Source of the DNA: Pseudomonadota bacterium
GTDB taxonomy: Bacteria; Desulfobacterota; Desulfuromonadia; Geobacterales; Pseudopelobacteraceae
Assembly: GCA_019352135.1 (NCBI GenBank)
Contig: JABBNX010000014.1
Coordinates: 1 to 38,283 of the forward strand
Direction of reading: 5' to 3'
Length of the DNA stretch: 38,283 nt
Within the stretch, counting starts at the first letter, position 1, and each line of letters opens with the position of its first letter. The notes under the pieces were generated by a model that saw only the letters and a program-made list of their open reading frames with translations, was not told the DNA's origin and searched no databases. Of the stretch, positions 6,259-25,264 are shown one piece after another. Made by a program: the position numbers and the translations under genes.

Positions 6259-6807
6259 TTATTTTTTAAGTATGCTAACCCGCCCAGTAGCCGAAATAGT
6301 TATAATATACTTCTGAATTGAATCAGAATTGATCGAGACATTACCGTCGCAGGCAATACCCGATGGCGATTTCAATTTCACTGTGCCATTAGTAGCGAAC
6401 TGTGCATAGACAACATTTGTCGAAGTGCCAGTCGCCAAACTCCTGATAGTTACAGTATTTGGCACAGCTTGTGTTTCTGTAGTTGCGAGCCAGGCTGCAC
6501 TCACCAAGTCGTAAGATTTCCAGCTATAGGTGCCGTCTACCGGATTAATTATCACCATCTGCGGCACATTTGTTGTTATCGCTTCAGACCTTGCTTTACG
6601 AAGCATTGACGTCATCCCACGCGCCGTGGTTTTGAAGTCAATGGAACGCCGATAATCAAGAACTGACGGTGTTGCTATCGCCACTATTATTCCTAGAAGT
6701 GCGATACAGACCAACAGCTCGACTAACGTGAATCCAGAACGAGCAGTAAATTTACCAAGTCGGAATCTGTCCACAATGTAACCAAATCGGTTGCTAAAAG
6801 TACCCAT
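6259..6807 (-). CDS. FimT/FimU-type minor pilin (GspH domain)
   Basis: Minor pilin expected at the tip/priming complex of the type IV pilus. The ATG at 6805-6807 gives 182 residues with a 24-residue basic leader ending ARSG and the class III cleavage site G/FTLVELLV with Glu at +5. A hydrophobic helix follows and then a GspH-like beta domain (MTSMLRKARSEAITTNVPQMVII, GTYSWKSYDL, FATNGTVKLKSPSG). The C-terminal ISATGRVSILKK resembles FimT/FimU ends. No good ribosome site precedes this ATG. An upstream in-frame start at 6903 would lie inside pilY1 and give an implausibly long leader. It follows pilY1 by 58 bp and is last in the operon. Confidence 0.85.
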   Translation of the reverse strand: MGTFSNRFGYIVDRFRLGKFTARSGFTLVELLVCIALLGIIVAIATPSVLDYRRSIDFKTTARGMTSMLRKARSEAITTNVPQMVIINPVDGTYSWKSYDLVSAAWLATTETQAVPNTVTIRSLATGTSTNVVYAQFATNGTVKLKSPSGIACDGNVSINSDSIQKYIITISATGRVSILKK

Positions 6808-6865
6808 ATTGTTTACATATTTCTGAGAATACAAACGATGACGGCATGTAAAAAAAGTGGCCAAT

Positions 6866-9800
6866 TTATTTTTGTCTCCAGTACATCGGAATAACAGTCC
6901 CACCTTTAAGCGGATCTACATTAATGATGTTGCTACCTGTACTAGTTAACGCTTTAACTGTGCCATCTGCGGCGACGACAACAACAACACCGGACGGAAT
7001 ACCGGTGCCAAGCGCTTGCTTCCGGTCACTGCGCAGTAAAACTTTACCAGCAGAGTTAGTAGAGTTCTTGTTGACAGTTGTGGTAGAGTCATTGGTCGTG
7101 TCATAATTGATAACAGAGTTGCCATTGCGATAATTTAATGCGTATAGCGTTGCCACTCCCACATCAGACGAGCATAACGTTGTAGTTGCTGCAGATCCCG
7201 GCTTGAAGGTTGTGAAATATGCCACCTTATTAAACACTGTTGGGGCAGCAAGTACTTTTTCACCATCATTTGTAACTTCATTTAGCTTAATAAACCAACC
7301 GTAGTTTGAAGATGAACTCAGTGTATTTAAGATTGCATCAACTGTTGCTTTATTTGCAACGGTATTCGTGTTTGTTTCTTGGATCGTGTCAGCAGTAACA
7401 TCAAGCATATTGGTTTCGTACTTCGTAGTCGTAGTAATCGCTGGGCCATAATCTTTCAGTGCATACATACGGTCGGTTACCGCGAGATTCAACGGGTGCT
7501 CACGATCGCCGGTGCCGAAAAACAGCATCTTGTAGCTTGGTTCCGAAACAATTGACGGCGGATAAAAGATTTTTCGGCCACGATCTGTATCAGTAGAGTT
7601 CAATGGATTTGAGCTGAATATTTTCGAACCGGTCCAACTTGATGAATTCGCCGAACTCAGGTCGAAGCGCCATATGTTGCCACCGGTATCTCCAGCATAA
7701 ATACGATTTGTATAACCGGAATTCGTCGCATCAATTGTTGCAAGATTCGTAGGGAACGAATAGACCAGTGCTGGATTGGTTGTTGCCGACGCCGTCGCTC
7801 CGTAGGTATAACTCCATAGTATGGCCGGTGGATTCGCTGTTGCCACAGTTGGCACACCACCAGTCAGAGTTGCGAGAGTTACAATATAGATACCACGCCC
7901 TTTTGCGGAAGTATAGTATGGAGCCGTACCAGTTCCTGGATTTGAACTTGTAAAATTACCAGTGCCTGTTGCAGAACCAGCAATGCCGGTTTCAACACCT
8001 TGAAAGTTTTGCGTGGCACCGTAGCGACCGTCTTCGTGTGGGTTGTCATACCCGGCACCGAATACAGCCGCTATTTTATCCGTGCTGCCAGTACGTATTT
8101 TTATTATTTTCGGCTCGCTCCATGTTTCTGCAAGCTCAGAGAAGCCATTAGTTGCATTAGAAAAGGTCCAGAGTAGCGTTGGCGAAGCTGGATTAGACAC
8201 GTCCAATGCGTAGTAGTTCCCAGTCGTAGGCGACCGGTCAGAGCCTCCACCGCGACCTTCGCCAAAAATGATGATAACTTTGTCACCGTGCGCTGTATTG
8301 ATAATCCCGTCATTTGACTTGTTGTAGGTATAGGTAGTAACACTCGAATCTACAAAATATGAATGAGTAACACCGGCCGGAATATTCTGCAATGTTGGTA
8401 GCAAATCCGGTGGAACAAAAGACCAAGCCTCAGTTCCGTTGTAATCGTTAAACGCATGGAGCATCCCGTCATTGCTGCCGACAAAAATCAGAGATTTATT
8501 CGCAGTAGTCGCCTCAGCTGAAGACGAGTAAGTTGCATAATTGACTACCACTGGGCGTGAATGTAATACATCGCCCATAATCCACTCACGGTTTTCGGTG
8601 GTATTTCCATTTATATTATGATCGTATGTGTCTGTGCCACGAATAAAGTTAACAATTTTGTCACGATCAGAGGTAAGCGTGACATTAAGCATCGCTGGCG
8701 AAACGTGCGTAGTATCAAAGTCAACTAACGAAGTGCTTGCAGAAGAAAGCATCGTCTTAATAACACGTGCCGATGGTGTCGTATTTTCCAATTGTCCGCC
8801 AACACCACCCTTATCTACATCGCCACCATCAACGATAGATCCCCAATAGGATTGTGTCGTACTTCGGAAGCTTCCATTAGAAAAACCGCTGGGAATAGTG
8901 GCCGCGGTATTATCGTCTATTCCAAACGGAGCAGCATTGTCAACCCAAGTCGCAAAGTTGCCGTTCGCATCTTTGATATTAAGATTTTGCGTCGTTGTGT
9001 CTTGGATTAGCCCATACTTCTTCAAGTTTCCAATCCACGAAACTCCAGTTTGTGGGGTAAAAAAGCCCATATAGACACGATCAGCGCCATAGGTGCGATT
9101 CTGCGGGCTAACCGGTACGACCGGGGCAACAAAAGTAGAATTGACTTCATTGATAGACGAAACGATTTGTAGCAGTGATCTGGTTAATCCAGCTTCGTCT
9201 CCGGCGTTATAGTATTTTCCGCGACCATGTGTACTATCCGCAGCTATCCCGAGCATCGCGATAGCATTAGCATCCGAGCCGCTGAGACCAAAACCGATGG
9301 TGTAGGTTGAGATGTTCTGAGTACTGTTATATAAGTATTTGGCAATTGCCGGTGTTGCGTTGTTAATGCCGGTGTTATTGTTCCCAATCGGAAAGTTGCT
9401 GCAATACCTAGATTTACAACCATCTGGTTCGCAACTATTAGTATCGCATATCGTTCCAAGCAAATTCGCTTGATCCGTAGTATACCCATCCCTATTTGCC
9501 AATCCGTCTGTTATCAATATGACATAATTCTTCTGGCAAGGTGCTTCTATCGGCGCGGTCGCTGTAGTAAGTTTGCCATTAACTACCCCGATAGTCGAAT
9601 CAAATGCCGGGGCGCCGCAATTGCTGCCTGCAGCGTCACAATTTCCAAACGATCGACCGGCCTCCAGAAGCAATTGACCAGGAAACGTGCCGATTGCCTC
9701 TGTTTCACCATAAGGCGGCGGAATCGTTGGCCAAGCGAATTTGATCGCATTAATTGCAGCCTTAAAAGCATCCTTATTCGTCGTTGTCGATGAAGTTGAA

Positions 9801-10537
9801 GGGAATGGGTCATCCATCTTCTTAACGGAGGTGATATACGGAGTTGAAGAGGAAGCTGGTGAACCAGTAAATTTCATAAATTGTCCTCCTCCTGTCGCCG
9901 AAGGATCTTCTTTCTTATAAAATGTCATCAGCCCGAATTTGATGTTTGGCGTAGAATTCACCATGTTTTTGAGAACGCGTATGGCAACATCTGCTTTAGT
10001 GACAACTATACTCGATGGAGAATTTAGATAATTAAGGTAATTTCCAGTGGCGTATGATTTTGTTGAGTTTGAACCGCAGGTACCATTCGAGTTTAGCTGC
10101 TTATTATTGCTTAGATAGTATCCATTGCTAATTAGCGAAGACGTATACATGCTACCACATTTGTTGCTCGGCAAGCTATTCAGTGTCGTAGAAACATTAT
10201 TTGCGATAGAATTTCCGACCAAGTCACCGACCGTATTACTTATTAAATATACGTTTCTGGGATCACAGTTTATTGTTCCGGTATTACCAGTGGTGGCAGA
10301 AGTACAACCCATTACCGTCGGTGTGTAAATAGTATTTGCGTCGTACTCTCCTCCGGAGATCGGATCCCTCATACTCGAGGAAGTATCTAAGGCAATAAGA
10401 ACATTCGGCTGTAATGTTGAAGCGACACCATAAATCGATGTATCTCCCGGATACATATCTGGCTCTGCGAAGGCACACGTAACATTAAAAAACAGTGCCG
10501 AGAGGCTAATAACACATAGGTTATATCTAGTTTTCAT
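6866..10537 (-). CDS. pilY1: Type IV pilus tip adhesin/biogenesis factor PilY1
   Basis: Large secreted tip protein that promotes pilus assembly, surface sensing and adhesion in characterised species. The 1223 residues begin with a signal peptide (cleavage near AFA/EP, residue 24). A von Willebrand A-type domain follows with an intact MIDAS start DTSSSM at residues 51-56, a region FGLMTFYKK near 200, and NYVILITDGLANRDG around 340. The C-terminal half carries the PilY1 beta-propeller: FVGSNDGMLHAFNDYNG, then KVIIIFGEGRGGG, IAAVFGAGYDN, NRIYAGDTGGNIWRFDL and MLFFGTGDREHPLN. Several cysteines lie in the N-terminal half (CDTNSCEPDGCKSRYC). GGAGG lies 6 bp before the ATG. It sits 12 bp after the small secreted-protein gene and belongs to the pilVWX unit. 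Confidence 0.95.
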   Translation of the reverse strand: MKTRYNLCVISLSALFFNVTCAFAEPDMYPGDTSIYGVASTLQPNVLIALDTSSSMRDPISGGEYDANTIYTPTVMGCTSATTGNTGTINCDPRNVYLISNTVGDLVGNSIANNVSTTLNSLPSNKCGSMYTSSLISNGYYLSNNKQLNSNGTCGSNSTKSYATGNYLNYLNSPSSIVVTKADVAIRVLKNMVNSTPNIKFGLMTFYKKEDPSATGGGQFMKFTGSPASSSTPYITSVKKMDDPFPSTSSTTTNKDAFKAAINAIKFAWPTIPPPYGETEAIGTFPGQLLLEAGRSFGNCDAAGSNCGAPAFDSTIGVVNGKLTTATAPIEAPCQKNYVILITDGLANRDGYTTDQANLLGTICDTNSCEPDGCKSRYCSNFPIGNNNTGINNATPAIAKYLYNSTQNISTYTIGFGLSGSDANAIAMLGIAADSTHGRGKYYNAGDEAGLTRSLLQIVSSINEVNSTFVAPVVPVSPQNRTYGADRVYMGFFTPQTGVSWIGNLKKYGLIQDTTTQNLNIKDANGNFATWVDNAAPFGIDDNTAATIPSGFSNGSFRSTTQSYWGSIVDGGDVDKGGVGGQLENTTPSARVIKTMLSSASTSLVDFDTTHVSPAMLNVTLTSDRDKIVNFIRGTDTYDHNINGNTTENREWIMGDVLHSRPVVVNYATYSSSAEATTANKSLIFVGSNDGMLHAFNDYNGTEAWSFVPPDLLPTLQNIPAGVTHSYFVDSSVTTYTYNKSNDGIINTAHGDKVIIIFGEGRGGGSDRSPTTGNYYALDVSNPASPTLLWTFSNATNGFSELAETWSEPKIIKIRTGSTDKIAAVFGAGYDNPHEDGRYGATQNFQGVETGIAGSATGTGNFTSSNPGTGTAPYYTSAKGRGIYIVTLATLTGGVPTVATANPPAILWSYTYGATASATTNPALVYSFPTNLATIDATNSGYTNRIYAGDTGGNIWRFDLSSANSSSWTGSKIFSSNPLNSTDTDRGRKIFYPPSIVSEPSYKMLFFGTGDREHPLNLAVTDRMYALKDYGPAITTTTKYETNMLDVTADTIQETNTNTVANKATVDAILNTLSSSSNYGWFIKLNEVTNDGEKVLAAPTVFNKVAYFTTFKPGSAATTTLCSSDVGVATLYALNYRNGNSVINYDTTNDSTTTVNKNSTNSAGKVLLRSDRKQALGTGIPSGVVVVVAADGTVKALTSTGSNIINVDPLKGGTVIPMYWRQK

Positions 10538-10549
10538 GCAATCCTCCAG

Positions 10550-10954
10550 TTACAATGTTGATGCTCGGCCATTTTTGCCTTGCATATCGAATACTGGTAC
10601 GGAAAAATTTAGCCGGTTCCCAGTCGCCCAATCCAATGGTTCATCCGTCTTGAAACATGTTCCGTTCGGGTGTAGGCCTCCTCGCCAGAGTCCGGTAGAT
10701 TCAAGAGCCTGTCGTGCATCAGCGCAAGGGACCGCTGACGGAAACATTCCGTTTACACCTCTGATCCAACCGAGATTGGACCGAAGTCGGCAATATACAC
10801 GATGCGGTTGAAATCGACCGGCGTAAGTAACCGTAGCATCATAGCCCGATACAATATTACCGGATACTTTTTCGGATGTCGCATGTACCGGAGTCGTGCT
10901 GTAACTTAACGCCATAAAACAAAATAAAGATCCTATTAACAGATATCGAAGCAT
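10550..10954 (-). CDS. Small secreted cysteine-containing protein between pilX and pilY1
   Basis: I do not recognise a family. I chose ATG at 10952-10954 because GGGGAGGA lies about 7 bp upstream; an earlier in-frame start at 10990 would lack such a site. The 134-residue product has a clear signal peptide (MLRYLLIGSLFCFMALSYS, cleavage probably after VHA). The mature part holds three cysteines (YCRL, VPCAD, GTCFK) and several aromatic/Gly motifs (LGWIRGVNG, GLWRGGLHPNG, NRLNFSVPVFD). It lies 35 bp after pilX and 12 bp before pilY1, so it is almost certainly co-translated with the tip genes. Its place suggests a periplasmic or extracellular helper or subunit of PilX/PilY1, which is inference from position. 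Confidence 0.75.
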   Translation of the reverse strand: MLRYLLIGSLFCFMALSYSTTPVHATSEKVSGNIVSGYDATVTYAGRFQPHRVYCRLRSNLGWIRGVNGMFPSAVPCADARQALESTGLWRGGLHPNGTCFKTDEPLDWATGNRLNFSVPVFDMQGKNGRASTL

Positions 10955-10989
10955 ATAATATCCTCCCCTGTAATGTAGAAGTACTGTCA

Positions 10990-11580
10990 TTATTGTGGTA
11001 CAACTTTTGCGATCTGTGCTTCTATTGTTGCTGACGAATTGTTTGGCTCAGTTGCAATTGCAGTCGAAACAAAATAGTTTGCTTTAAAGCTTGTTGATCC
11101 TCCCAAGCTGGAATCTTCCTGTGTCCCATAACCAGGAGGAAGATTACCGCTTCCGACGAATTCAACTTTAACTTGTACCGTTGAATTGTTCGGCAGAGTA
11201 ATAACATTATAGCTAGTTCCGGTTGCTACACCTTCGGCAAAGTTTGAATTCAAGCTATGACCTCCAGCCGCGGGCCACGTGGTGGTGTTGCCATTCAAAG
11301 AGAGATAAATCTGGCTATAGGTCTCTGCAAATTGCAGTGCAGCATCTGCGGAATAAAAAGCAACCTGGTTATTATGGCTATTTCCGGTGATCTTCAGTTC
11401 GGAGGTCGTACTGTCAAGCAGTGTTGTACCTAGAATGCTAAGCAGCAGCAATGTTATAAGTACAATAATAAGGACAATTCCATCTTCGTTGTCAAGACTG
11501 GAACCATTACGACGAAGTCTGAGAACCGGTTTCAGCACTTCCTTGGATTTGCTCTCGCTTTGCATAACCTGTTCGGTCAT
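10990..11580 (-). CDS. pilX: Minor pilin-like protein PilX
   Basis: PilX-family minor pilin; with PilV, PilW and FimU-type proteins it primes pilus assembly and holds PilY1 at the tip. The 196 residues have a long basic leader (about 33 residues) followed by the PilX_N signature DGIVLIIVLITLLLLSILGTT, with a cleavable Gly before Ile. Next come the conserved ITGNSHNNQVAFYSADAALQFAE, typical of PilX (the A-x-AA-Q-x-AE motif), and a beta-rich C-terminal domain. Glu at +5 is absent, as is common in this family. The ATG overlaps the pilW stop by 4 bp. Confidence 0.9.
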   Translation of the reverse strand: MTEQVMQSESKSKEVLKPVLRLRRNGSSLDNEDGIVLIIVLITLLLLSILGTTLLDSTTSELKITGNSHNNQVAFYSADAALQFAETYSQIYLSLNGNTTTWPAAGGHSLNSNFAEGVATGTSYNVITLPNNSTVQVKVEFVGSGNLPPGYGTQEDSSLGGSTSFKANYFVSTAIATEPNNSSATIEAQIAKVVPQ

Positions 11581-12446
11581 CGCTTATTCCTCAGCATTAT
11601 TAAAGAAGTCAGTTGTTTGTTTTTCGGTCCGGAGCTCGTTGCAGCTGTGCCATCGAGAGTAACTCGGACTGCCCGAATTGTGTTGGGCGAGGAAGAAGGC
11701 GGTACCGAATCTTCAGTACCGTCCTCATACACGTAGGAGAATCTCAACTTAGAAATATAACTCGCGATAATGTCTTCGCTGCCATTCGTCGAACGCGCTA
11801 AACAGGTCTGGTTTGCCGGACAGCTCCCACCGGTTACCAGATAGAACTGAACGATGTCAAAAGGACCGTGTGCGGTGAGGCTTGCAGCTTTAGCAAACAT
11901 ATCGCCATTCGCAACATCTCCGTCGCCTACTGCAAATGCACCAGAGCCATTAACCGAAAGGCTTTGGCTAGCTGGTATGCCCGACACAATTAGCGTCGTA
12001 TATGTAGCAAAAACGGGAGTATCCGTTAAAGGTTTAATAAGCCGGACTCTATCACCGTTTGCAAACCCCGAAGAAGAATCAACAGCCGAACTATACATTG
12101 CATAGACTGTGGTTCTTGTTTTAGTTTTTGTTGCACGGGCATATATGCCATCGGACGACGCGGTATTTATTGTTACGCTTGAGGTCCAATTGCCAAATAT
12201 ACCAGCAGCCAATGGAGTCGTTGTCAGCGGAACCAGAGTCCCGGCATTCTTGAGAGTACTTGTAATTGACTCCATCGCCATACGAAGGTTCTGCTGCATC
12301 TCGATGGTCTCATCTTGAACATACGCATTTTTTAAGTGCGCGATATAGAGTGAAAATATAGCTCCTAGCACTATGCCAAGCATGGCGAGAACAACGAGAA
12401 TTTCGACGAGTGAAAATCCACGATTATTTGAGTTAACTACTTTCAT
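11577..12446 (-). CDS. pilW: Minor pilin PilW
   Basis: PilW-family minor pilin of the type IV pilus tip complex. The 289 residues begin with a short leader, MKVVNSNNRG, and cleavage motif G/FSLVEILVVLAMLGIVLG with Glu at +5. The helix continues into MQQNLRMAMESITSTLKNAGT, a characteristic PilW stretch, and then a large beta-rich domain. That domain holds two cysteines (GGSCPANQTCLA) likely forming a local disulfide, and a segment (ISKLRFSYVYEDG) near the C-terminus that is typical of the family. It overlaps both pilV (4 bp) and pilX (4 bp), so the three pseudopilins are translationally coupled. Confidence 0.93.
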   Translation of the reverse strand: MKVVNSNNRGFSLVEILVVLAMLGIVLGAIFSLYIAHLKNAYVQDETIEMQQNLRMAMESITSTLKNAGTLVPLTTTPLAAGIFGNWTSSVTINTASSDGIYARATKTKTRTTVYAMYSSAVDSSSGFANGDRVRLIKPLTDTPVFATYTTLIVSGIPASQSLSVNGSGAFAVGDGDVANGDMFAKAASLTAHGPFDIVQFYLVTGGSCPANQTCLARSTNGSEDIIASYISKLRFSYVYEDGTEDSVPPSSSPNTIRAVRVTLDGTAATSSGPKNKQLTSLIMLRNKR

Positions 12447-12964
12447 ATAATCCTCTTAAAGCCAGAAAGCGTCATTGGACTAAATCCAGGGCCATGGATT
12501 GTAACCGCAACCATGACATTTCCAGCACATATACTGTTTGATGACGTTCCTATTGTGATGGAATATGTTGCGGTATATGTCCCCGCACCCGTGACCGTAA
12601 TGCTTGTTGCAGCACTATTAGGGTCTAAATCATACGATACGTCTGTAGAATTGTTGACAAACAGAGGATCATCAATACCCTTCGCCAAAATATCTTCCAA
12701 AGCTGCCTGTCCTAAATTATTTGCAACTGAATATCGTGCAGCTTTCTGGTTGGCACTCATGGAAACTACAAACATTGATACAACCGCCATGACGCCTATT
12801 AGCAACAACGTTAACGCTACGAGAACTTCCACAAGAGTGAAACCTTTATTGTTGGCAAATGAGCTCTTATCAACAGGGAGAAGACTGTAATTGTTAGATT
12901 TGGATTCATTGAGTGGGGATAAGAACTTTTTAGTATCTATCCATTTATATACGCATGACTCCAT
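12443..12964 (-). CDS. pilV: Minor pilin PilV
   Basis: PilV-family minor pilin. I chose the ATG at 12962-12964 because TTAGGAG sits 5-6 bp upstream; a TTG five codons earlier is in frame but overlaps that ribosome site. This gives 173 residues with an unusually long leader of about 40 residues before the cleavage site NNKG/FTLVEVLVALTLLLIGVMAVV. Glu is at +5. The following ANQKAARYSVANNLGQAALEDIL is the usual PilV helix end, and the remaining beta domain is small. It is the first pilin gene of the unit, about 80 bp after the zinc-ribbon gene. Confidence 0.9.
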   Translation of the reverse strand: MESCVYKWIDTKKFLSPLNESKSNNYSLLPVDKSSFANNKGFTLVEVLVALTLLLIGVMAVVSMFVVSMSANQKAARYSVANNLGQAALEDILAKGIDDPLFVNNSTDVSYDLDPNSAATSITVTGAGTYTATYSITIGTSSNSICAGNVMVAVTIHGPGFSPMTLSGFKRII

Positions 12965-13044
12965 GGATTCTCCTAACAATACTTAATGGCACTAAAATTG
13001 TTTGTACATTTTAAACATACTGAACTACAAACCTACCAATGATG

Positions 13045-13572
13045 TTACCTCTTGTAAACTGACAGGACAACAGTGGCTGAAATGAGCAACAATAATACAC
13101 CAAGAATAATCATATTTCTTTTCGAAAACATTTTCACCACAAGCCGCTCCATCGGCGTCAATATTTTCCCTCGACAATAAATACATACCTTCAGTTCTGG
13201 CGCAATCAGTTTTTGGCAATAGGGACAGTTAACCATTTTTTCTTTCACGATTGGCTTTTGTTGTTGTTTCTTTTTGCGCTCCGCCAGTTTTTCTGCCTTC
13301 AACTCTTTATATTTTTCATATTCGCGGGCGTAATCTTTATAGATTAATGATCCAGTTATCGTTGCAAACAGCTCTTCAAGCTGTTTCAGGTTTTCTGAGG
13401 CACCAGCTCGCACAATAGAATCAGACGAGCGCATTGCCTTGCCATAATCGTCCTTCAACTTCCGATAGGTTCTCTCCACCTGTTCAGGATTGTCGCTGAA
13501 CGAAAGCCCCATTGCCTTGTAGCAAAGCTCGATATCGGAAAACTCCTTTTCCTTCTCTGAAACATCACCCAT
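13045..13572 (-). CDS. Zinc-ribbon, single-pass membrane protein with J-like N-terminus
   Basis: Not a named family I can assign. The 175 residues fall into three parts. First is an acidic/basic helical N-terminus (about 12-105) whose pattern FSDNPEQVERTYRKLKDDY...YKDYAREYEKYKE resembles a J-domain without the HPD motif. Second is a zinc-ribbon CPYC-x9-CIYC at about 115-132. Third is a C-terminal transmembrane helix at about 150-170 with a short basic tail. The membrane would hold the soluble part in the cytoplasm. The start has GGAGG upstream. A sigma54 promoter lies about 80-95 bp ahead and pilV follows, so it is probably the first gene of the minor-pilin operon. An assembly or regulatory role is a guess. 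Confidence 0.8.
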   Translation of the reverse strand: MGDVSEKEKEFSDIELCYKAMGLSFSDNPEQVERTYRKLKDDYGKAMRSSDSIVRAGASENLKQLEELFATITGSLIYKDYAREYEKYKELKAEKLAERKKKQQQKPIVKEKMVNCPYCQKLIAPELKVCIYCRGKILTPMERLVVKMFSKRNMIILGVLLLLISATVVLSVYKR

Positions 13573-13650
13573 TCCTTTTCCCCTCCGACTACCAATTGCA
13601 GATCATACAAAAATGTTTGACATCCAACATTAAAACAATATCGATTCTGA

Positions 13651-13666
13651 AGCAAAATTAGTGCCA
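13651..13666 (-). promoter_or_regulatory. Sigma54 (-24/-12) promoter for the pilVWX-pilY1 unit
   Basis: The minus strand reads TGGCACTAATTTTGCT, i.e. TGGCAC-N5-TTGCT, with GG and GC separated by exactly 10 bp as RpoN requires. The predicted start is near 13640, leaving a leader of about 68 nt before the zinc-ribbon gene at 13572. rpoN itself and a sigma54-dependent activator are encoded upstream in this window. Confidence 0.8.
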
Positions 13667-13761
13667 CATATTTAAAAAAGCTATCTACCTATAATAAAGC
13701 CTGTTTTTCACAACATCAGTCCTGCTATGCAATTTATACATAACAAAAGTGATATAAAGAA

Positions 13762-13796
13762 GCCTCTTGCTATGCAATCTTTTCATAGCAAGAGGC
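13762..13796 (-). terminator. Intrinsic terminator after the cysteine-rich pseudopilin
   Basis: A perfect 13-bp stem, GCCTCTTGCTATG (13762-13774) with CATAGCAAGAGGC (13784-13796), and a 9-base loop. On the minus strand the stem is followed by TTCTTTAT, a moderate U tract, so it fits termination of the long run ending at 13883. On the plus strand no U tract follows. Confidence 0.7.
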
Positions 13797-13882: not shown

Positions 13883-14449
13883 TTACAACAGTTCCCACAC
13901 CCCATTAGCACATCGACGCAACACATAGCCCACAGCAGATGAATTTGACGTAAGCGCCATGGCACCTCCCTGACCGTTTACGAGGTACACGGTACCAGCA
14001 TTGCTGGTCATATCCCGATTACAAACCATCGTGTTGTTGACCTGGAAAGTAACGCCGTCTTCTGTAGCAGCCAACCCCGGCACTGGTCCGCACGTCCCAT
14101 ACCCGAAATGCAATCCTCCGCCTTTACCTGCCACTTTGAAGGAACGCAGGACCTCATCGTCAGCTGTATTCCAACTGCCGTCCATCCCCCGATCTGACGC
14201 AAGCGCAACAGTGCTGTTGTCGGTGTTAAATGCTACTGCATGAGCCTGATCTGATGAGAGTGCCAATGCTTTGGCTTCTTTAACAACCTGGCATATATCG
14301 TACATGGTGATCTTCAAAACACAGTTACCGTAGTAAGCAGCAACAACCGGCATTGCAATGACACCTAAACAAATAATAACAGCCAAGACAATGACAAGTT
14401 CCAAAAGGGAAAAGCCTTCAGCATTGGTGCGACTATGTTTCTGCGCCAT
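13883..14449 (-). CDS. Cysteine-rich GspH/FimT-type pseudopilin
   Basis: Pseudopilin of a type IV pilus or type II secretion-like system. The 188 residues carry a short leader, MAQKHSRTNAEG, and the class III site G/FSLLELVIVLAVIICLGVIAMP with Glu at +5. The GspH-like globular domain has KEAKALALSSDQAHAVAFN, SDRGMDGSWNTADDEVLRSF and GVTFQVN. It contains five cysteines beyond the helix (NCVL, DICQ, GTCGP, VCNRD, RRCAN), unusual compared with the other pseudopilins here, suggesting disulfides. It is the last gene of the run and follows the DsbC-like gene by 42 bp. It is separated from the other fimT-like gene by the whole minor-pilin operon. Confidence 0.85.
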   Translation of the reverse strand: MAQKHSRTNAEGFSLLELVIVLAVIICLGVIAMPVVAAYYGNCVLKITMYDICQVVKEAKALALSSDQAHAVAFNTDNSTVALASDRGMDGSWNTADDEVLRSFKVAGKGGGLHFGYGTCGPVPGLAATEDGVTFQVNNTMVCNRDMTSNAGTVYLVNGQGGAMALTSNSSAVGYVLRRCANGVWELL

Positions 14450-14491: not shown

Positions 14492-15265
14492 CTATTTCCC
14501 TTCAAGCTCCTTCTTCATCGTTTCCGCATCGCGCATCCCGACCTGAATTGTCCCGTCCGGCAATATCAGGGTAGGAGTACCCGAAATGCCGTGAGCATTG
14601 GCAAATTTTATAATCTCATCAATCGCTTTTTTACTGCTTTCCTTGACAGGTTTTGGCATCTCTTTACCATCAAAGGCCTTGTCGAGCAGTTCATGGTTCT
14701 TTGACTCCAATATTGCTCTTGATTTGTCATAAGATCCGGGATGCATCGGCAGTGGGAAAAGCATAACGTATATAGTTACATCCGGGTCAATCTTTATCAG
14801 CTTTTTCAGCTCGGCGTGACCTTTTCGACAGTAGGGACAATCAGGATCGGTAAAAACATACAGTTTTTTGGTCCCCTTGGGATTGCCAATAACCACGGCA
14901 TTTGCCACCGGGATAGTTTTAACATCGACGGACGTCACCTGCTTAGGTTGTGGCAAAGCCGAAACCGGCTGCAGAGTTTCAAGATCGATTATCATTCCCT
15001 GCAGAAGATGTTTTTTACCGTAATCAATGAAAATGACACCCTGCTTATCGTTCTTTTCCACAAGGAGCTCGAAAAGCCCCTTTGCGGGAGCCTGCTTGAC
15101 GGATTTAACCGTTATACCGGTCTTCTTTAACAGTGCATCGGCGTCTTTTACAGAAAGATTGTGACAGGAAGCACACTCACCGCCGCAGCCATTTTGCGGC
15201 ATGGCATGCGCGGAAGAAACAGCACTGATTGTTACAGCTACAGCAATACAAATAATTTTAAACAT
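14492..15265 (-). CDS. dsbC: DsbC-like periplasmic thiol:disulfide isomerase with CxxCH motif
   Basis: Thioredoxin-fold protein likely to isomerise or reduce wrong disulfides in the periplasm. The 257 residues have a signal peptide cleaved near AHA/MP (residue 21). A short insert with C27 and C31-A-S-C34-H35 forms a CxxCH heme-c attachment motif. A DsbC-like dimerisation domain follows (about 36-125), then the catalytic domain with FTDPDCPYC (C143/C146, the DsbC/DsbG-type active site) and the cis-proline loop SGTPTL (P231). The extra cysteines ahead of the dimerisation domain are not part of standard DsbC. The gene lies 28 bp after the response-regulator stop and just before a cysteine-rich pseudopilin, a plausible substrate. 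Confidence 0.88.
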   Translation of the reverse strand: MFKIICIAVAVTISAVSSAHAMPQNGCGGECASCHNLSVKDADALLKKTGITVKSVKQAPAKGLFELLVEKNDKQGVIFIDYGKKHLLQGMIIDLETLQPVSALPQPKQVTSVDVKTIPVANAVVIGNPKGTKKLYVFTDPDCPYCRKGHAELKKLIKIDPDVTIYVMLFPLPMHPGSYDKSRAILESKNHELLDKAFDGKEMPKPVKESSKKAIDEIIKFANAHGISGTPTLILPDGTIQVGMRDAETMKKELEGK

Positions 15266-15293: not shown

Positions 15294-16664
15294 CTACTCT
15301 ATGCCATATTCCTTGATTTTGTAAAGCAGGGAGCGATGACTGATTTCAAGTATTTTTGCTGATTGTGTTCGATTACCACCGGTTTTTGCAAGCGCTTTCC
15401 AAATAAGCTCCCGTTCGATAGCTTCCTCGGCTTTTTTAATAGAAAAATTTTCACCACTGGCTGCATAGCCGGAGGCATGTTCATCAATCAGGCGAATAGC
15501 AGGCGGTAAACAGGCCGCGGTAATACGGCCACCATCACAGAGGATGCTGGCTCGCTCAAGGACATTTTCAAGTTCCCGTACATTGCCCGGCCAGCGATGC
15601 GCCATCAGGGTACGCATTGCATCCGGCTCGATATGTAGAATCTGCTTGCCTTCACCATAGTCCGAATGTTTCAAAAAATGCTCTGCCAACAAAGGGATGT
15701 CTTCAACCCGTTCACGGAGCGGCGGCAACTGCAGACAAAAGACATTCAGCCTGAAATACAAATCCTCCCGAAAGCGTCCTCCTTCCACATCAGCCGACAA
15801 GTTCCGTGATGTGGCAGAAATCACCCTGACATCCACTTTTTGGGAAACGGCTCCCCCTACCCGTCTGATTTCACCCTCCTGCAAAACCCTCAGCAGCTTG
15901 ACTTGCAGCGAGACCGGCATCTCTCCGACTTCGTCAAGAAACAATGTGCCACCATCGGCCTGTTCAAAAAGTCCCGACCGGTCACTGGACGCATCGGTGA
16001 AGGCGCCCCGTATATGCCCGAACAATTCACTCTCCAGCAGGTTTTCAGATATAGCTCCACAATTTACTGCCACAAATTGCTTTTGTGACCGAAGGCCGTT
16101 GTTATGGATGGCACGGGCTACCAGCTCTTTTCCTGTGCCGGACTCACCCAGGATTATTATGGTCGTCTTCAAGTCGGCAACTCTTCTAATCTGTTTAAAT
16201 ATTTCCTGCATCCGACTGTTACGGCTGAGTATCCCGCCGTAGGAATACTGACCGGCGACCACTTCCCGCAATTGGCAGTTTTCTTCTTTCAGGCGTTCCC
16301 GCTCTTCGGCTTTTTTGAGTACCATTATAATTTCGTCTTTTTTGAACGGCTTCGAGATAAAATCATAGGCGCCCAGCTTCATGCATTCTACTGCAACTTC
16401 CACGGTACCGTAGGCCGACATCATAATGATCGGTGCCGTGACATGTTGTTCCAGTGCCCGCACCAAAAAAGTCTTACCATCCATTTCCGGCATCCGGATA
16501 TCACACAAGATGAAATCGTAGACATTATCCATAAGGCAGCAGAGTCCCTCTTCTCCATGAGCAGCAAGGATAACGCAGTACCCCTGGCGAGTCAGCATGA
16601 CCGACAACATATGACGCATATTTTCTTCGTCATCAATGACCAGAATATGTTGACCGTTACTCAT
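15294..16664 (-). CDS. Sigma54-dependent response regulator (NtrC/PilR type)
   Basis: Phosphorylation-controlled activator of RpoN promoters. ATG at 16662-16664 with AGGAGG upstream gives 456 residues; upstream in-frame codons would overlap the kinase gene. The receiver domain (about 5-120) has DD at 11-12, phosphoacceptor D55 in CDIRMPEMDG and K105. The AAA+ domain has Walker A GESGTGKE (173-180), Walker B LFLDE near 241-245 and an arginine-finger region FRLNVF. The sigma54-contact loop reads GAFTDA (220-225) instead of GAFTGA. A Fis-type HTH ends the protein (GGNRTQSAKILEISHRSLLYKIK). It overlaps the kinase gene by 8 bp. It is analogous to PilR by context, but strict PilR identity is unproven. 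Confidence 0.93.
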   Translation of the reverse strand: MSNGQHILVIDDEENMRHMLSVMLTRQGYCVILAAHGEEGLCCLMDNVYDFILCDIRMPEMDGKTFLVRALEQHVTAPIIMMSAYGTVEVAVECMKLGAYDFISKPFKKDEIIMVLKKAEERERLKEENCQLREVVAGQYSYGGILSRNSRMQEIFKQIRRVADLKTTIIILGESGTGKELVARAIHNNGLRSQKQFVAVNCGAISENLLESELFGHIRGAFTDASSDRSGLFEQADGGTLFLDEVGEMPVSLQVKLLRVLQEGEIRRVGGAVSQKVDVRVISATSRNLSADVEGGRFREDLYFRLNVFCLQLPPLRERVEDIPLLAEHFLKHSDYGEGKQILHIEPDAMRTLMAHRWPGNVRELENVLERASILCDGGRITAACLPPAIRLIDEHASGYAASGENFSIKKAEEAIERELIWKALAKTGGNRTQSAKILEISHRSLLYKIKEYGIE

Positions 16665-18156
16665 GCCCCCCTCCTTCATCAATTCGCCCCAGCGGTAACC
16701 AGACAGTAAAACAACTGCCTTTGCCAATTGTGCTGGTTGCCGAGATACGCCCGCCAAATCCCTCAATGATCCGTGCGGAGATTGCCAAACCAAGACCTGT
16801 CCCCTTCCCGGGCGGCTTGGTTGTAAAAAATGGATCAAAAATATGCTTCATGGACTCATGCGGGATTCCTGTGCCGGAATCAATAACGTCCAAGCGTATG
16901 TAGTCCTCCTCTTGTCCGGCTTTTATCTCTATAGTTCCGCCATCAGGCGTGGCATCTCGGCTATTAAGAAGCAAATTGATAACCACTTGCTGAAGCTGGT
17001 ACTGATCACACCCGGCAAACAATGATTCTTCTTCAATTTCAAGATGAAGATTCAATTGTTTGAAAACTCCCTGCTGCTTCATCAGATCGAGAACAGAGGA
17101 GACAACATTGCCCATGTCAGCATTTTCTTTACCCGATATTCGCGGCCGGGAATAATCAAGTAAGCCCCGTACTATCCGGTCAATCCGAGAACAATCTTCT
17201 GTGATGCGCCGGGCATAATCGTGAATAACGGCATTATCAGGCTGTTCTCCTGCAGTAAGTTCTGCATAGCCCATGATTGACGCAAGCGGCGTTCCGATTT
17301 CATGCGCCATTCCGGCAGCCAATAGACCGATGGAAGCCATTTTCTCGGTGCGAATCGTTTCTTCCCGTGCTTGACGAATTTCACAGTTTGCATTTTCAAG
17401 GGCAGCCATCTGCTCCGTAACCTGATGATCTTTTGCTATAAGCGTTGAGACCATTTCGTTAAAAGCTTTTGCCAATCGGGCAATTTCGGCACTCCCTGAT
17501 ACATGCAGCTTCTGCCCATACTGACCTCCGGTGATCTTTTCCGTTGCGGTCAATAAACGGTTAATCGGATTGACAACAATTCTTGTCAAAACAAAAGAGC
17601 CCAGGCCAAGTAATAATATAAAATCCAGTACAAAATAAGCCATCAACATCTGCTGCGTTCGGTTCAGGCGGGCTTTTTCAGAAGCCAGAGAGAGCAGCAG
17701 ACCAGCTTTACCGACAACCTGCCCGTTACGCATAACGGTCAGAATGCTAATGACGCCTCTCCCATCCGGCTGGATAAAACTCCCGTCTGCAGTTTCTGAT
17801 AATCCTTTGAACGGAGCATACAAATCACTTTCAGCCCGGCCAGTACTAAAAACCGGCTTTCCGTTTCTATCCAGCAGAGTCAGACGGCCAAAAGCAGACT
17901 CTTCAGAAAGTCTGGCAATATAGTGTGATGCCTGGGAGTCAGAGGGCAAAAAACCTTCCGGAGAGGTAAGTACTGAATCAGGAAGCAAACTGACAAAAGC
18001 CTTGAGCAACGTGCGAGCATGCTCACCTTTTTGAGCGTACAGATCGTTGGCAGCAGTTTTGAAAGCCAGCACACTGAAGAGAAGCCAGGTTAATACCAGC
18101 AGCAAGCCCAGAAAGGCGAGGATTGAAACAGTCAGACTAGGACGGTAGCGGGCCAT
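16657..18156 (-). CDS. Membrane sensor histidine kinase (HAMP, HisKA, HATPase)
   Basis: Probable partner of the adjoining sigma54 response regulator. The 499 residues show a transmembrane helix at about 10-31 and a periplasmic sensor of about 130 residues (RLTLLDRNGKPVFSTG suggests a PAS-like/Cache fold). A second transmembrane helix follows at about 171-193, then a HAMP linker (PINRLLTATEKITGGQYGQKL), a coiled segment and the dimerisation box AGMAHEIGTPLASI with H285. The ATPase domain has N, G1 (DSGTGIPHESM), F and G2 (GKGTGLGLAIS) boxes. It has two membrane spans, unlike classic six-span PilS, so the signal may differ. The ATG follows the pilD stop by 1 bp, linking expression to the peptidase. 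Confidence 0.9.
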   Translation of the reverse strand: MARYRPSLTVSILAFLGLLLVLTWLLFSVLAFKTAANDLYAQKGEHARTLLKAFVSLLPDSVLTSPEGFLPSDSQASHYIARLSEESAFGRLTLLDRNGKPVFSTGRAESDLYAPFKGLSETADGSFIQPDGRGVISILTVMRNGQVVGKAGLLLSLASEKARLNRTQQMLMAYFVLDFILLLGLGSFVLTRIVVNPINRLLTATEKITGGQYGQKLHVSGSAEIARLAKAFNEMVSTLIAKDHQVTEQMAALENANCEIRQAREETIRTEKMASIGLLAAGMAHEIGTPLASIMGYAELTAGEQPDNAVIHDYARRITEDCSRIDRIVRGLLDYSRPRISGKENADMGNVVSSVLDLMKQQGVFKQLNLHLEIEEESLFAGCDQYQLQQVVINLLLNSRDATPDGGTIEIKAGQEEDYIRLDVIDSGTGIPHESMKHIFDPFFTTKPPGKGTGLGLAISARIIEGFGGRISATSTIGKGSCFTVWLPLGRIDEGGGHE

Positions 18157-23796: not shown

Positions 23797-23823
23797 GACG
23801 ACTGCCAAGACAGGCAGATCGTC
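23797..23823 (-). other. Hairpin between rpoN and hpf
   Basis: GACGA/TCGTC plus CTGCC/GGCAG make a 10-bp stem with one bulged base and a 6-base loop, directly at the rpoN stop codon. On the minus strand only TATTTC follows, too few U residues for a firm terminator. It may be a weak attenuator or an mRNA processing or stability element separating rpoN from hpf levels. Confidence 0.35.
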
Positions 23824-25264
23824 AAAAATGTCGTTTACGTTCAGAAGATGACCCGAAGTTAAGCATTTCGCGATACTTGGTTACGGTACGGCGAGCTATA
23901 TTTACCGTCTGTCCTGTCAGTAACTCAGCAATTTTTTGATCGGATAATGGTTTTTGCGGATTTTCCTTTTCAATAATCTCCTTGATTTTGTTTTTAACGC
24001 TCTCGGAAGCGACAAAATCTCCTTCGCTGGTTGAAAGGCCGCTGTTAAAGAAATATTTCAGCTCCAGTAGTCCTTGCGGTGTCTGCATATACTTATTGGT
24101 AGTGACCCTGCTGATAGTTGACTCATGCATGCCGATATCTTCTGCAATATCTCTCAGCACCAAAGGGCGAAGATACTCGATACCATGATCAAAGTATTCG
24201 CGCTGAAACCGGATTATACTTTTTGCGACCTTATATATGGTTCGCTGCCGCTGTTGAATACTCTTGATCAGCCAGGCAGCGGAACGCATTTTGTCACTAA
24301 TATAATGCTCGGTCTGGGAATCGATTGTACCATTTCCACGAGCATCAGAATACTGGGTACTGACTTTCAGGTTGGGTAACCCTTCTTCATTCAGCATGAC
24401 GACATAATCATCACCCACCTTGTGAACGAAAATGTCGGGAGAAATATATTGTACGTCATCCGTGCTGAACGAGGAGCCGGGGCGCGGGTCAAATCCGGAA
24501 ATAATCCGGGAAGCTGCCAGCACCTGATTTAAATCAACTTTCAAAGAACGGGCTATCTGTTTATAGTTTCGCTTTTCCAGGTCACCAAGATGATTCTGCA
24601 GGATACTTTCGACAATACTTCCCTTCATGCCCAGATTTTTGGCTTGAATAAGCAGACATTCACGCAGATCACGAGCAGCAACTCCGGGAGGGTCAAATTC
24701 CTGGATGCAGTCGAGCACATCCTGAACATCATCTTCCGTAGCAGAACTTGCCGCAGCAATTTCATCGAGAGACGCCCGTAAATAACCATAATCATCAACA
24801 TTACCGATGATCACTTCACCCACACGAACATCCATTTCCGAGTACTGCCCCATATGAAGCTGCCACAGCAGGTGATCAATCAGGGTACCTTTACGTGTCA
24901 GCAGGTTTTCAAAGGAAGGGCGTTCATCATCACCTCCGTACTGCTGCTCACCGGAGCTATAGTTGTAGCCGTCGAGGTAGCTGTCCCAGTCCCGCAGCGT
25001 TTCCTCACCGGTTTCAACCTCATGAAAATCCACACTATCCTGCGCAGGTTCAATTTCCTGTTCAGCCACCTCAAGTGTGTCGGGCTCACGGATTTCTTCC
25101 AGTTCAGTGGATTCTTCAAGGAGCGGGTTTTCCTCCAATTCCTGAACGACAAGATCCTGGAGCTCCAAACGTGTCAACTGAAGCAGCTTGATAGCCTGCT
25201 GCAACTGGGGAGTCATCACCAGTTGCTGGGACATTTTCAGTTGTTGACGCATCTCCATTGCCAT
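23822..25264 (-). CDS. rpoN: RNA polymerase sigma54 factor RpoN
   Basis: Alternative sigma factor that binds -24/-12 promoters and needs an AAA+ activator. The 480 residues have the Gln/Leu-rich region I (MRQQLKMSQQLVMTPQLQQAIKLLQL), an acidic region II (about 50-115), the core-binding domain (LLWQLHMGQ, IGNVDDYGYL, FDPPGVAARDLRECLL, ISGFDPRPG), the HTH segment (LRDIAEDIGMHESTISRVTTNKYMQTP) and a C-terminal RpoN box ARRTVTKYREML. The ATG has GAGGT about 8 bp upstream. lptB lies 126 bp upstream, the usual lptB-rpoN order. At least one likely target promoter is in this window. Confidence 0.97.
   Translation of the reverse strand: MAMEMRQQLKMSQQLVMTPQLQQAIKLLQLTRLELQDLVVQELEENPLLEESTELEEIREPDTLEVAEQEIEPAQDSVDFHEVETGEETLRDWDSYLDGYNYSSGEQQYGGDDERPSFENLLTRKGTLIDHLLWQLHMGQYSEMDVRVGEVIIGNVDDYGYLRASLDEIAAASSATEDDVQDVLDCIQEFDPPGVAARDLRECLLIQAKNLGMKGSIVESILQNHLGDLEKRNYKQIARSLKVDLNQVLAASRIISGFDPRPGSSFSTDDVQYISPDIFVHKVGDDYVVMLNEEGLPNLKVSTQYSDARGNGTIDSQTEHYISDKMRSAAWLIKSIQQRQRTIYKVAKSIIRFQREYFDHGIEYLRPLVLRDIAEDIGMHESTISRVTTNKYMQTPQGLLELKYFFNSGLSTSEGDFVASESVKNKIKEIIEKENPQKPLSDQKIAELLTGQTVNIARRTVTKYREMLNFGSSSERKRHF

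Follow-up and report, generated by a model that had tools for sequence, protein, structure and literature searches.

The tips of type IV pili in this member of the Geobacterales appear, from sequence comparisons, to be switched on by a dedicated two-component regulator of their own. The element concerned lies in a 38,283-nucleotide stretch of DNA (the window, by which we mean the whole stretch analysed) taken from an assembly of 275 contigs. The minus-strand 16-mer at 13651-13666 is very probably a working σ54 promoter of the zinc-ribbon-pilV-pilW-pilX-hypothetical-pilY1-fimT operon, activated by the NtrC-type response regulator encoded at 15294-16664, whose gene forms part of a kinase-regulator pair 1.6 kb upstream. 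Support at the sequence level comes from the promoter and its upstream dyads, their near-fixed geometry, conservation across the order, restriction to one class of operon, and co-loss with the regulator.

Gene neighbourhood of the promoter

On the minus strand, rpoN is followed at some distance by genes for a prepilin peptidase, a histidine kinase, the regulator, a DsbC-like protein and a FimT-like prepilin, after which comes the promoter. Beyond it lie the zinc-ribbon gene, pilV, pilW, pilX, a hypothetical gene, PilY1 and FimT, and then pilM-Q. The rpoN, σ54-activator, peptidase and pilV/pilW/pilX/PilY1/fimT genes named in the first-pass annotation are thus all present at the locus.

23822-25264, minus strand: rpoN (σ54), sole copy in the genome
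18158-19066, minus strand: prepilin peptidase PilD (open reading frame; syntenic in relatives)
16657-18156, minus strand: partner histidine kinase with HAMP, HisKA and HATPase domains, overlapping the regulator gene
15294-16664, minus strand: NtrC-type response regulator, the proposed activator (receiver, σ54-interaction AAA+ and Fis HTH domains)
14492-15265, minus strand: DsbC-like periplasmic protein; CxxCH motif invariant (domain search, alignment)
13883-14449, minus strand: FimT-like prepilin encoded ahead of the promoter (its translation shows a prepilin leader)
13045-13572, minus strand: zinc-ribbon membrane protein of 175 aa, first gene of the operon (open reading frame)
12443-12979, minus strand: pilV-like minor prepilin (N_methyl)
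11577-12446, minus strand: pilW-like minor prepilin (N_methyl)
10990-11580, minus strand: pilX-like minor pilin (PilX_N)
10550-10990, minus strand: hypothetical secreted protein inside the operon (open reading frame)
6866-10537, minus strand: PilY1, 1223 aa (PF05567 T4P_PilY1, E 1.3e-12)
6259-6903, minus strand: FimT/GspH-like minor pilin (domain search)

The FimT-like prepilin had no Pfam match at E 0.001, and the zinc-ribbon protein had no match in Pfam or NCBIfam. The latter has a CxxC-CxxC ribbon, preceded by a helical N-terminal part and followed by a membrane segment at the C-terminus. The CxxCH motif of the DsbC-like protein, which is heme-c-like and lies in the N-terminal domain, is invariant in all 8 aligned orthologs and may be compared with TfcP, a c-type cytochrome which assists PilY1 in Myxococcus (PMC8833165).

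The -24/-12 element

The first-pass annotation had described a minus-strand TGGCAC-N5-TTGCT, with 10 bp from GG to GC, some 80 bp ahead of the zinc-ribbon gene. The motif is indeed present, conforms to the σ54 consensus TGGCAY-N5-TTGCW with GG-N10-GC spacing, and lies 79 bp from the ATG of the zinc-ribbon gene when measured from the -12 GC.

13651-13666, minus strand: σ54 -24/-12 promoter TGGCACTAATTTTGCT (exact motif; spacing to the dyads kept in relatives)

If transcription begins about 12 bp past the -12 GC, the start is predicted near 13640.

Assessing so short a motif by frequency gives a mixed picture. This is the one zero-mismatch match in the window, where shuffles lead one to expect 0.05 (an exact match arose in 5 of 100 shuffled windows). 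Matches with two mismatches number 29 against 12 expected. Across the whole genome the exact pattern occurs five times and its reversed control four times, although four of the five exact sites fall outside open reading frames of at least 80 aa. Judged by the genome count, the 16-mer alone is weak evidence, a lead that falls short of proof. Because the exact motif performs no better genome-wide than its reversed control, conservation was used as evidence instead.

The same counts, both the five against four in the genome and the excess of two-mismatch matches in the window, would also suit a fortuitous match in the AT-rich spacer, with transcription of the operon then coming from upstream or from a σ70 promoter. 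We hold this to be very improbable. A hairpin separates the upstream gene from the promoter, the promoter consensus scan listed no σ70-like site on the minus strand of the intergenic stretch, and dozens of diverged genomes keep a fixed geometry of dyads and -24/-12 element which is found zero times on the opposite strand.

Tandem dyads upstream of the promoter

Overlooked in the first-pass annotation were two copies of a dyad, CTATGnAAnnnTTGCATAG, lying 45 bp apart upstream of the -24/-12 element.

13725-13743, minus strand: proximal candidate activator site, dyad TTATGTATAAATTGCATAG, centre at about -94 (array conserved)
13770-13788, minus strand: distal candidate activator site, dyad CTATGAAAAGATTGCATAG, centre at about -139, 45 bp from the proximal dyad
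13762-13796, minus strand: terminator-like hairpin enclosing the distal dyad (arms of 16 nt, 94% complementary)

The centres are counted from the assumed start near 13640. Activators of σ54 usually bind at upstream distances of this kind, around -94 to -139, and by position (80-150 bp from the start) and conservation both dyads are putative upstream activator sites. Allowing 0-1 mismatch, the whole genome holds the promoter pair and one further site; the latter, a one-mismatch dyad on contig C106, was discounted as it lies inside a coding region.

The RNA of the hairpin around the distal dyad folds at -25.2 kcal/mol (z -4.15). Its T tract is weak and it is absent from the list of the consensus terminator scan; it probably ends the transcript of the upstream fimT-like gene. 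One might therefore take the dyads for plain terminator or repeat hairpins with no part in regulation, the more so as the distal copy sits in a GC-capped hairpin in the relatives of the window and as such a hairpin persists in two genomes that are without the array (G038 and G039). Yet the proximal dyad is uncapped and conserved at 76-80 bp from the -24 element, other genera have the pair at the stop codon of the regulator gene, and terminators would not be expected to keep a 42-45 bp spacing in phase with a promoter. We give the hairpin explanation scarcely any credence, and read the dyads as candidate operators of the σ54 promoter.

Conservation of the arrangement

Orthologs of the zinc-ribbon gene occur in 20 of 76 family genomes, most of them with a -24/-12 element in the upstream region, while orthologs of the response regulator, scoring far above the next paralog, occur in approximately 70 of the 76. 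Scanning homologous loci had been proposed in the first-pass annotation as a check on the promoter. We scanned the regions downstream of regulator orthologs for dyad pairs with a score of at least 24, chosen without regard to σ54. The -24/-12 element was conserved: at 39 of the 40 family loci so selected its distance from the start of the second dyad is 76-80 bp, and the exception (L110) shows the same distance if its single clear dyad is counted as the distal one. The two dyads are 42-45 bp apart in these relatives. Scores for the -24/-12 element come from a weight matrix set by hand, which makes the thresholds approximate.

A uniform scan of 119 loci (926 kb) returned 111 co-oriented combinations of dyad and -24/-12 element in 82 loci, and none on the opposite strand. 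All 111 belong either to this promoter or to two homologous PilY1-type operons whose regulator is encoded elsewhere. Other families of the order were positive at 32 of 38 regulator loci, whereas none of 185 control stretches taken from these loci was positive. The tandem-pair scan mostly failed in these families because they carry a single dyad, 80-133 bp from the -24 element, and a looser scan recovered the loci. Named carriers of the arrangement include Oryzomonas japonica and Geomonas oryzae, both of them cultivated, and G. edaphica. The proposal that σ54 acts on the tip/priming operon is thereby supported, in so far as the order-wide recurrence of dyads and -24/-12 elements can indicate it.

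The location of the array varies: it lies at the stop codon of the regulator gene, before dsbC, in most genera, and after dsbC or dsbC-fimT in the relatives of the window. It went unrecognised in 18 of the 67 family genomes in which the regulator is present or likely present. Some of these cases are contig ends or sub-threshold sites; G017, G023, G044, G045 and G047 are unaccounted for. Conversely, one genome (G030) has two arrays on different contigs (L175 and L181), each with its own -24/-12 element, and its regulator may serve two tip operons.

Natural deletions and relocations

Several genomes have lost the kinase-regulator pair. In G038, G039, G041, G043 and G075 (loci L118, L316, L317, L318 and L321) it is cleanly deleted between pilD and dsbC, the order rpoN-hprK-rapZ-(ptsI)-pilD-dsbC being otherwise intact, save that rpoN of G039 is on another contig. 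No orthologs of regulator or kinase were found elsewhere in these genomes. The array of dyads and -24/-12 element is missing in 5 of 5, while rpoN, pilD and dsbC are retained. A tree of DsbC indicates approximately three independent losses of the pair, and the association of its loss with that of the array gives a Fisher p of 0.002, relatedness being ignored. This co-loss, together with the conserved array, lends support to the earlier suggestion that the nearby σ54 activator controls the operon.

In four further genomes the array is found away from the regulator, in each case accompanying a PilY1 or minor-pilin operon. G016, G020 and G028 carry the zinc-ribbon operon, dyad(s) and -24/-12 element on a different contig from the regulator (G028 with one clear dyad only), and in G021 the array lies within an 88-kb contig and the kinase-regulator pair at the edge of another. 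Regulator and array are thus lost jointly, yet the array would seem able to work at a distance, the behaviour one would predict for a trans-acting regulator.

The putative activator

The regulator has the architecture of the NtrC class, with a receiver, a σ54-interaction AAA+ domain and a Fis-type HTH. Its best NCBIfam match was AtoC, at 502 bits under that model's cut-off of 714 bits, and no PilR model was among the 25 listed. The second-best regulator match in the genome, on contig C48, was considered as a PilR and rejected, since the genes in front of it are transporter-like and no pilA is close by.

The loop contacting σ54 reads GAFTDA, as against the GAFTGA of NtrC-class activators. GAFTDA occurs in nearly all regulator orthologs read across the order, GAFTGA in one genus (g7), and the variant does not track the presence of the array. 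A survey of Desulfovibrio counted GAFTDA among the loop variants expected to remain active (PMC4641369); for VfmH of Dickeya, which has GAFTDA, σ54 interaction was not detected (PMC10714721).

A concern is whether the promoter is real but its dyads serve another σ54 activator, the product of a gene outside the locus. The genome contains 32 σ54-activator domains, 31 besides that of the locus regulator, and the four genomes with array and regulator on different contigs would suit such an arrangement. Against this, array and kinase-regulator pair were lost jointly in about three lineages, the array lies right at the regulator stop codon in most relatives, and the regulator HTH, near-invariant among orthologs, finds its closest match elsewhere in the genome at 48%. 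We consider a different activator improbable, though less so than the other two alternatives. Our preference for the locus regulator is based on its proximity, the co-loss, the near-invariant HTH and the lack of a close HTH paralog.

A possible sequence of events is as follows. The kinase would sense an envelope or surface cue and phosphorylate the regulator, which would then oligomerise on the two dyads, centred some 94 and 139 bp ahead of the start, the distal one placed inside the putative terminator hairpin of the preceding gene. DNA looping could bring the AAA+ ring of the regulator to σ54-polymerase at the -24/-12 element, and the tip/priming complex would be produced upon this activation.

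rpoN and pilA in context

The first-pass annotation had contrasted the tip operon, as σ54 target, with the major pilin, and had proposed a closed local circuit of sigma factor, activator, peptidase and target. The first half of the contrast holds, the tip operon being of σ54 type, but so is pilA. That gene, on contig C54 (G000:C54:3442-3742, L271), has a -24/-12 element, TGGCAGAGATTTTGCT, at C54:3727-3742, 67 bp before its ATG. It encodes a short pilin of the geopilin type that shares 80% identity with the G. sulfurreducens PilA sequence used as query, and its element is in line with the RpoN element and control described for pilA of G. sulfurreducens (PMC2725144). No dyads were found at pilA on C54, so that of the two promoters they are confined to that of the tip operon. 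On this sequence evidence the contrast should read that the tip as well as the major pilin is under σ54, via a separate activator.

The closed circuit was overstated, since rpoN is a global sigma factor and pilA too is of σ54 type. A single rpoN stands beside 32 σ54-activator domains, and genomes that have lost the regulator still keep it. In nearly all genomes of the family 7-10 kb separate it from the regulator gene, a synteny that holds within the family; in G. sulfurreducens, rpoN and the pil locus are far apart by locus tags (GSU1887 and GSU2038; PMC2700814).

Possible tip cassettes

What follows the promoter differs between genomes. The window has the zinc-ribbon gene, pilV, pilW, pilX, the hypothetical gene, PilY1 (1223 aa) and fimT, whereas most relatives have a giant protein of 1400-1980 aa early behind the promoter and prepilins after it. 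Giant PilY1-like proteins replace the PilY1 of the window behind the same promoter at L123, L138, L143, L178 and other loci. Two giant proteins are distant relatives of the window PilY1 by BLASTP (24% identity, E 1e-15 and 4e-20). Of the giant downstream proteins, two received no PilY1 call from Pfam, and two others were given just Ig-like (Big_5 in some giants) and CopC domains. Conservation is far stronger in the regulator and DsbC than among the tip proteins.

We regard it as quite possible, if still short of probable, that across the order tip identity resides in a cassette open to exchange (either minor pilins come first, with a 1223-aa PilY1, or a giant PilY1-like adhesin of 1400-1980 aa leads) behind one fixed, dedicated two-component/σ54 promoter. 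The sequences suggest that tip modules have been exchanged while the switch stayed fixed; rapid divergence from a single ancestral operon is a possible alternative. If module exchange is the correct reading, the supply of tips would be controlled independently of the major pilin, and an old switch could accept new tips. The shared promoter pattern also offers a regulatory reason for the occurrence of unrelated PilY1 tips at one locus, as noted in G. metallireducens (PMC2700814).

Work on Geobacter-type pili addresses adhesion, biofilms and extracellular electron transfer, and we found no description of the control of their tip/priming complex in the open-access literature searched. A defined promoter, two candidate operators and a named regulator, for which natural deletions and relocations serve as controls, make tip control directly testable in cultured relatives.

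Comparison with known systems

Three systems invite comparison. Firstly, PilS-PilR/RpoN likewise joins a σ54 promoter and a two-component NtrC-class activator at a type IV pilus gene, the major pilin gene pilA (Pseudomonas, PMC6058289; RpoN element of G. sulfurreducens, PMC2725144). Here, however, the proposed target is the tip/priming operon in place of pilA, the kinase carries a HAMP domain, and pilA lacks the dyad. Neither is the regulator-kinase pair found beside pilA, as it is in PilS-PilR: pilA on C54 has neither this pair nor the dyads.

Secondly, there is AlgZ/FimS-AlgR. As general background, AlgR is a LytTR-type, non-σ54 regulator outside the NtrC class which does not use -24/-12 promoters, whereas here an NtrC-class regulator and a -24/-12 promoter are present. 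The likeness is that of a two-component system specifically tied to a comparable operon, fimU-pilVWXY1Y2E of Pseudomonas (PMC5979040).

Thirdly, a direct link between an NtrC-type regulator and pilY1 is already published. In the HsfB-HsfA system of Myxococcus xanthus, the NtrC-like HsfA binds the promoters of the pilY1.1 and pilY1.3 operons (PMC9109919). As is proposed here, an NtrC-like response regulator is directed at pilY1 operons that also encode minor pilins (PMC9109919). HsfA differs in having other targets too (lonD and secondary-metabolite genes), and in activating one pilY1 while repressing another (PMC9109919). In the present case, by contrast, the regulator adjoins its proposed target, and the candidate site is essentially confined to the tip operon.
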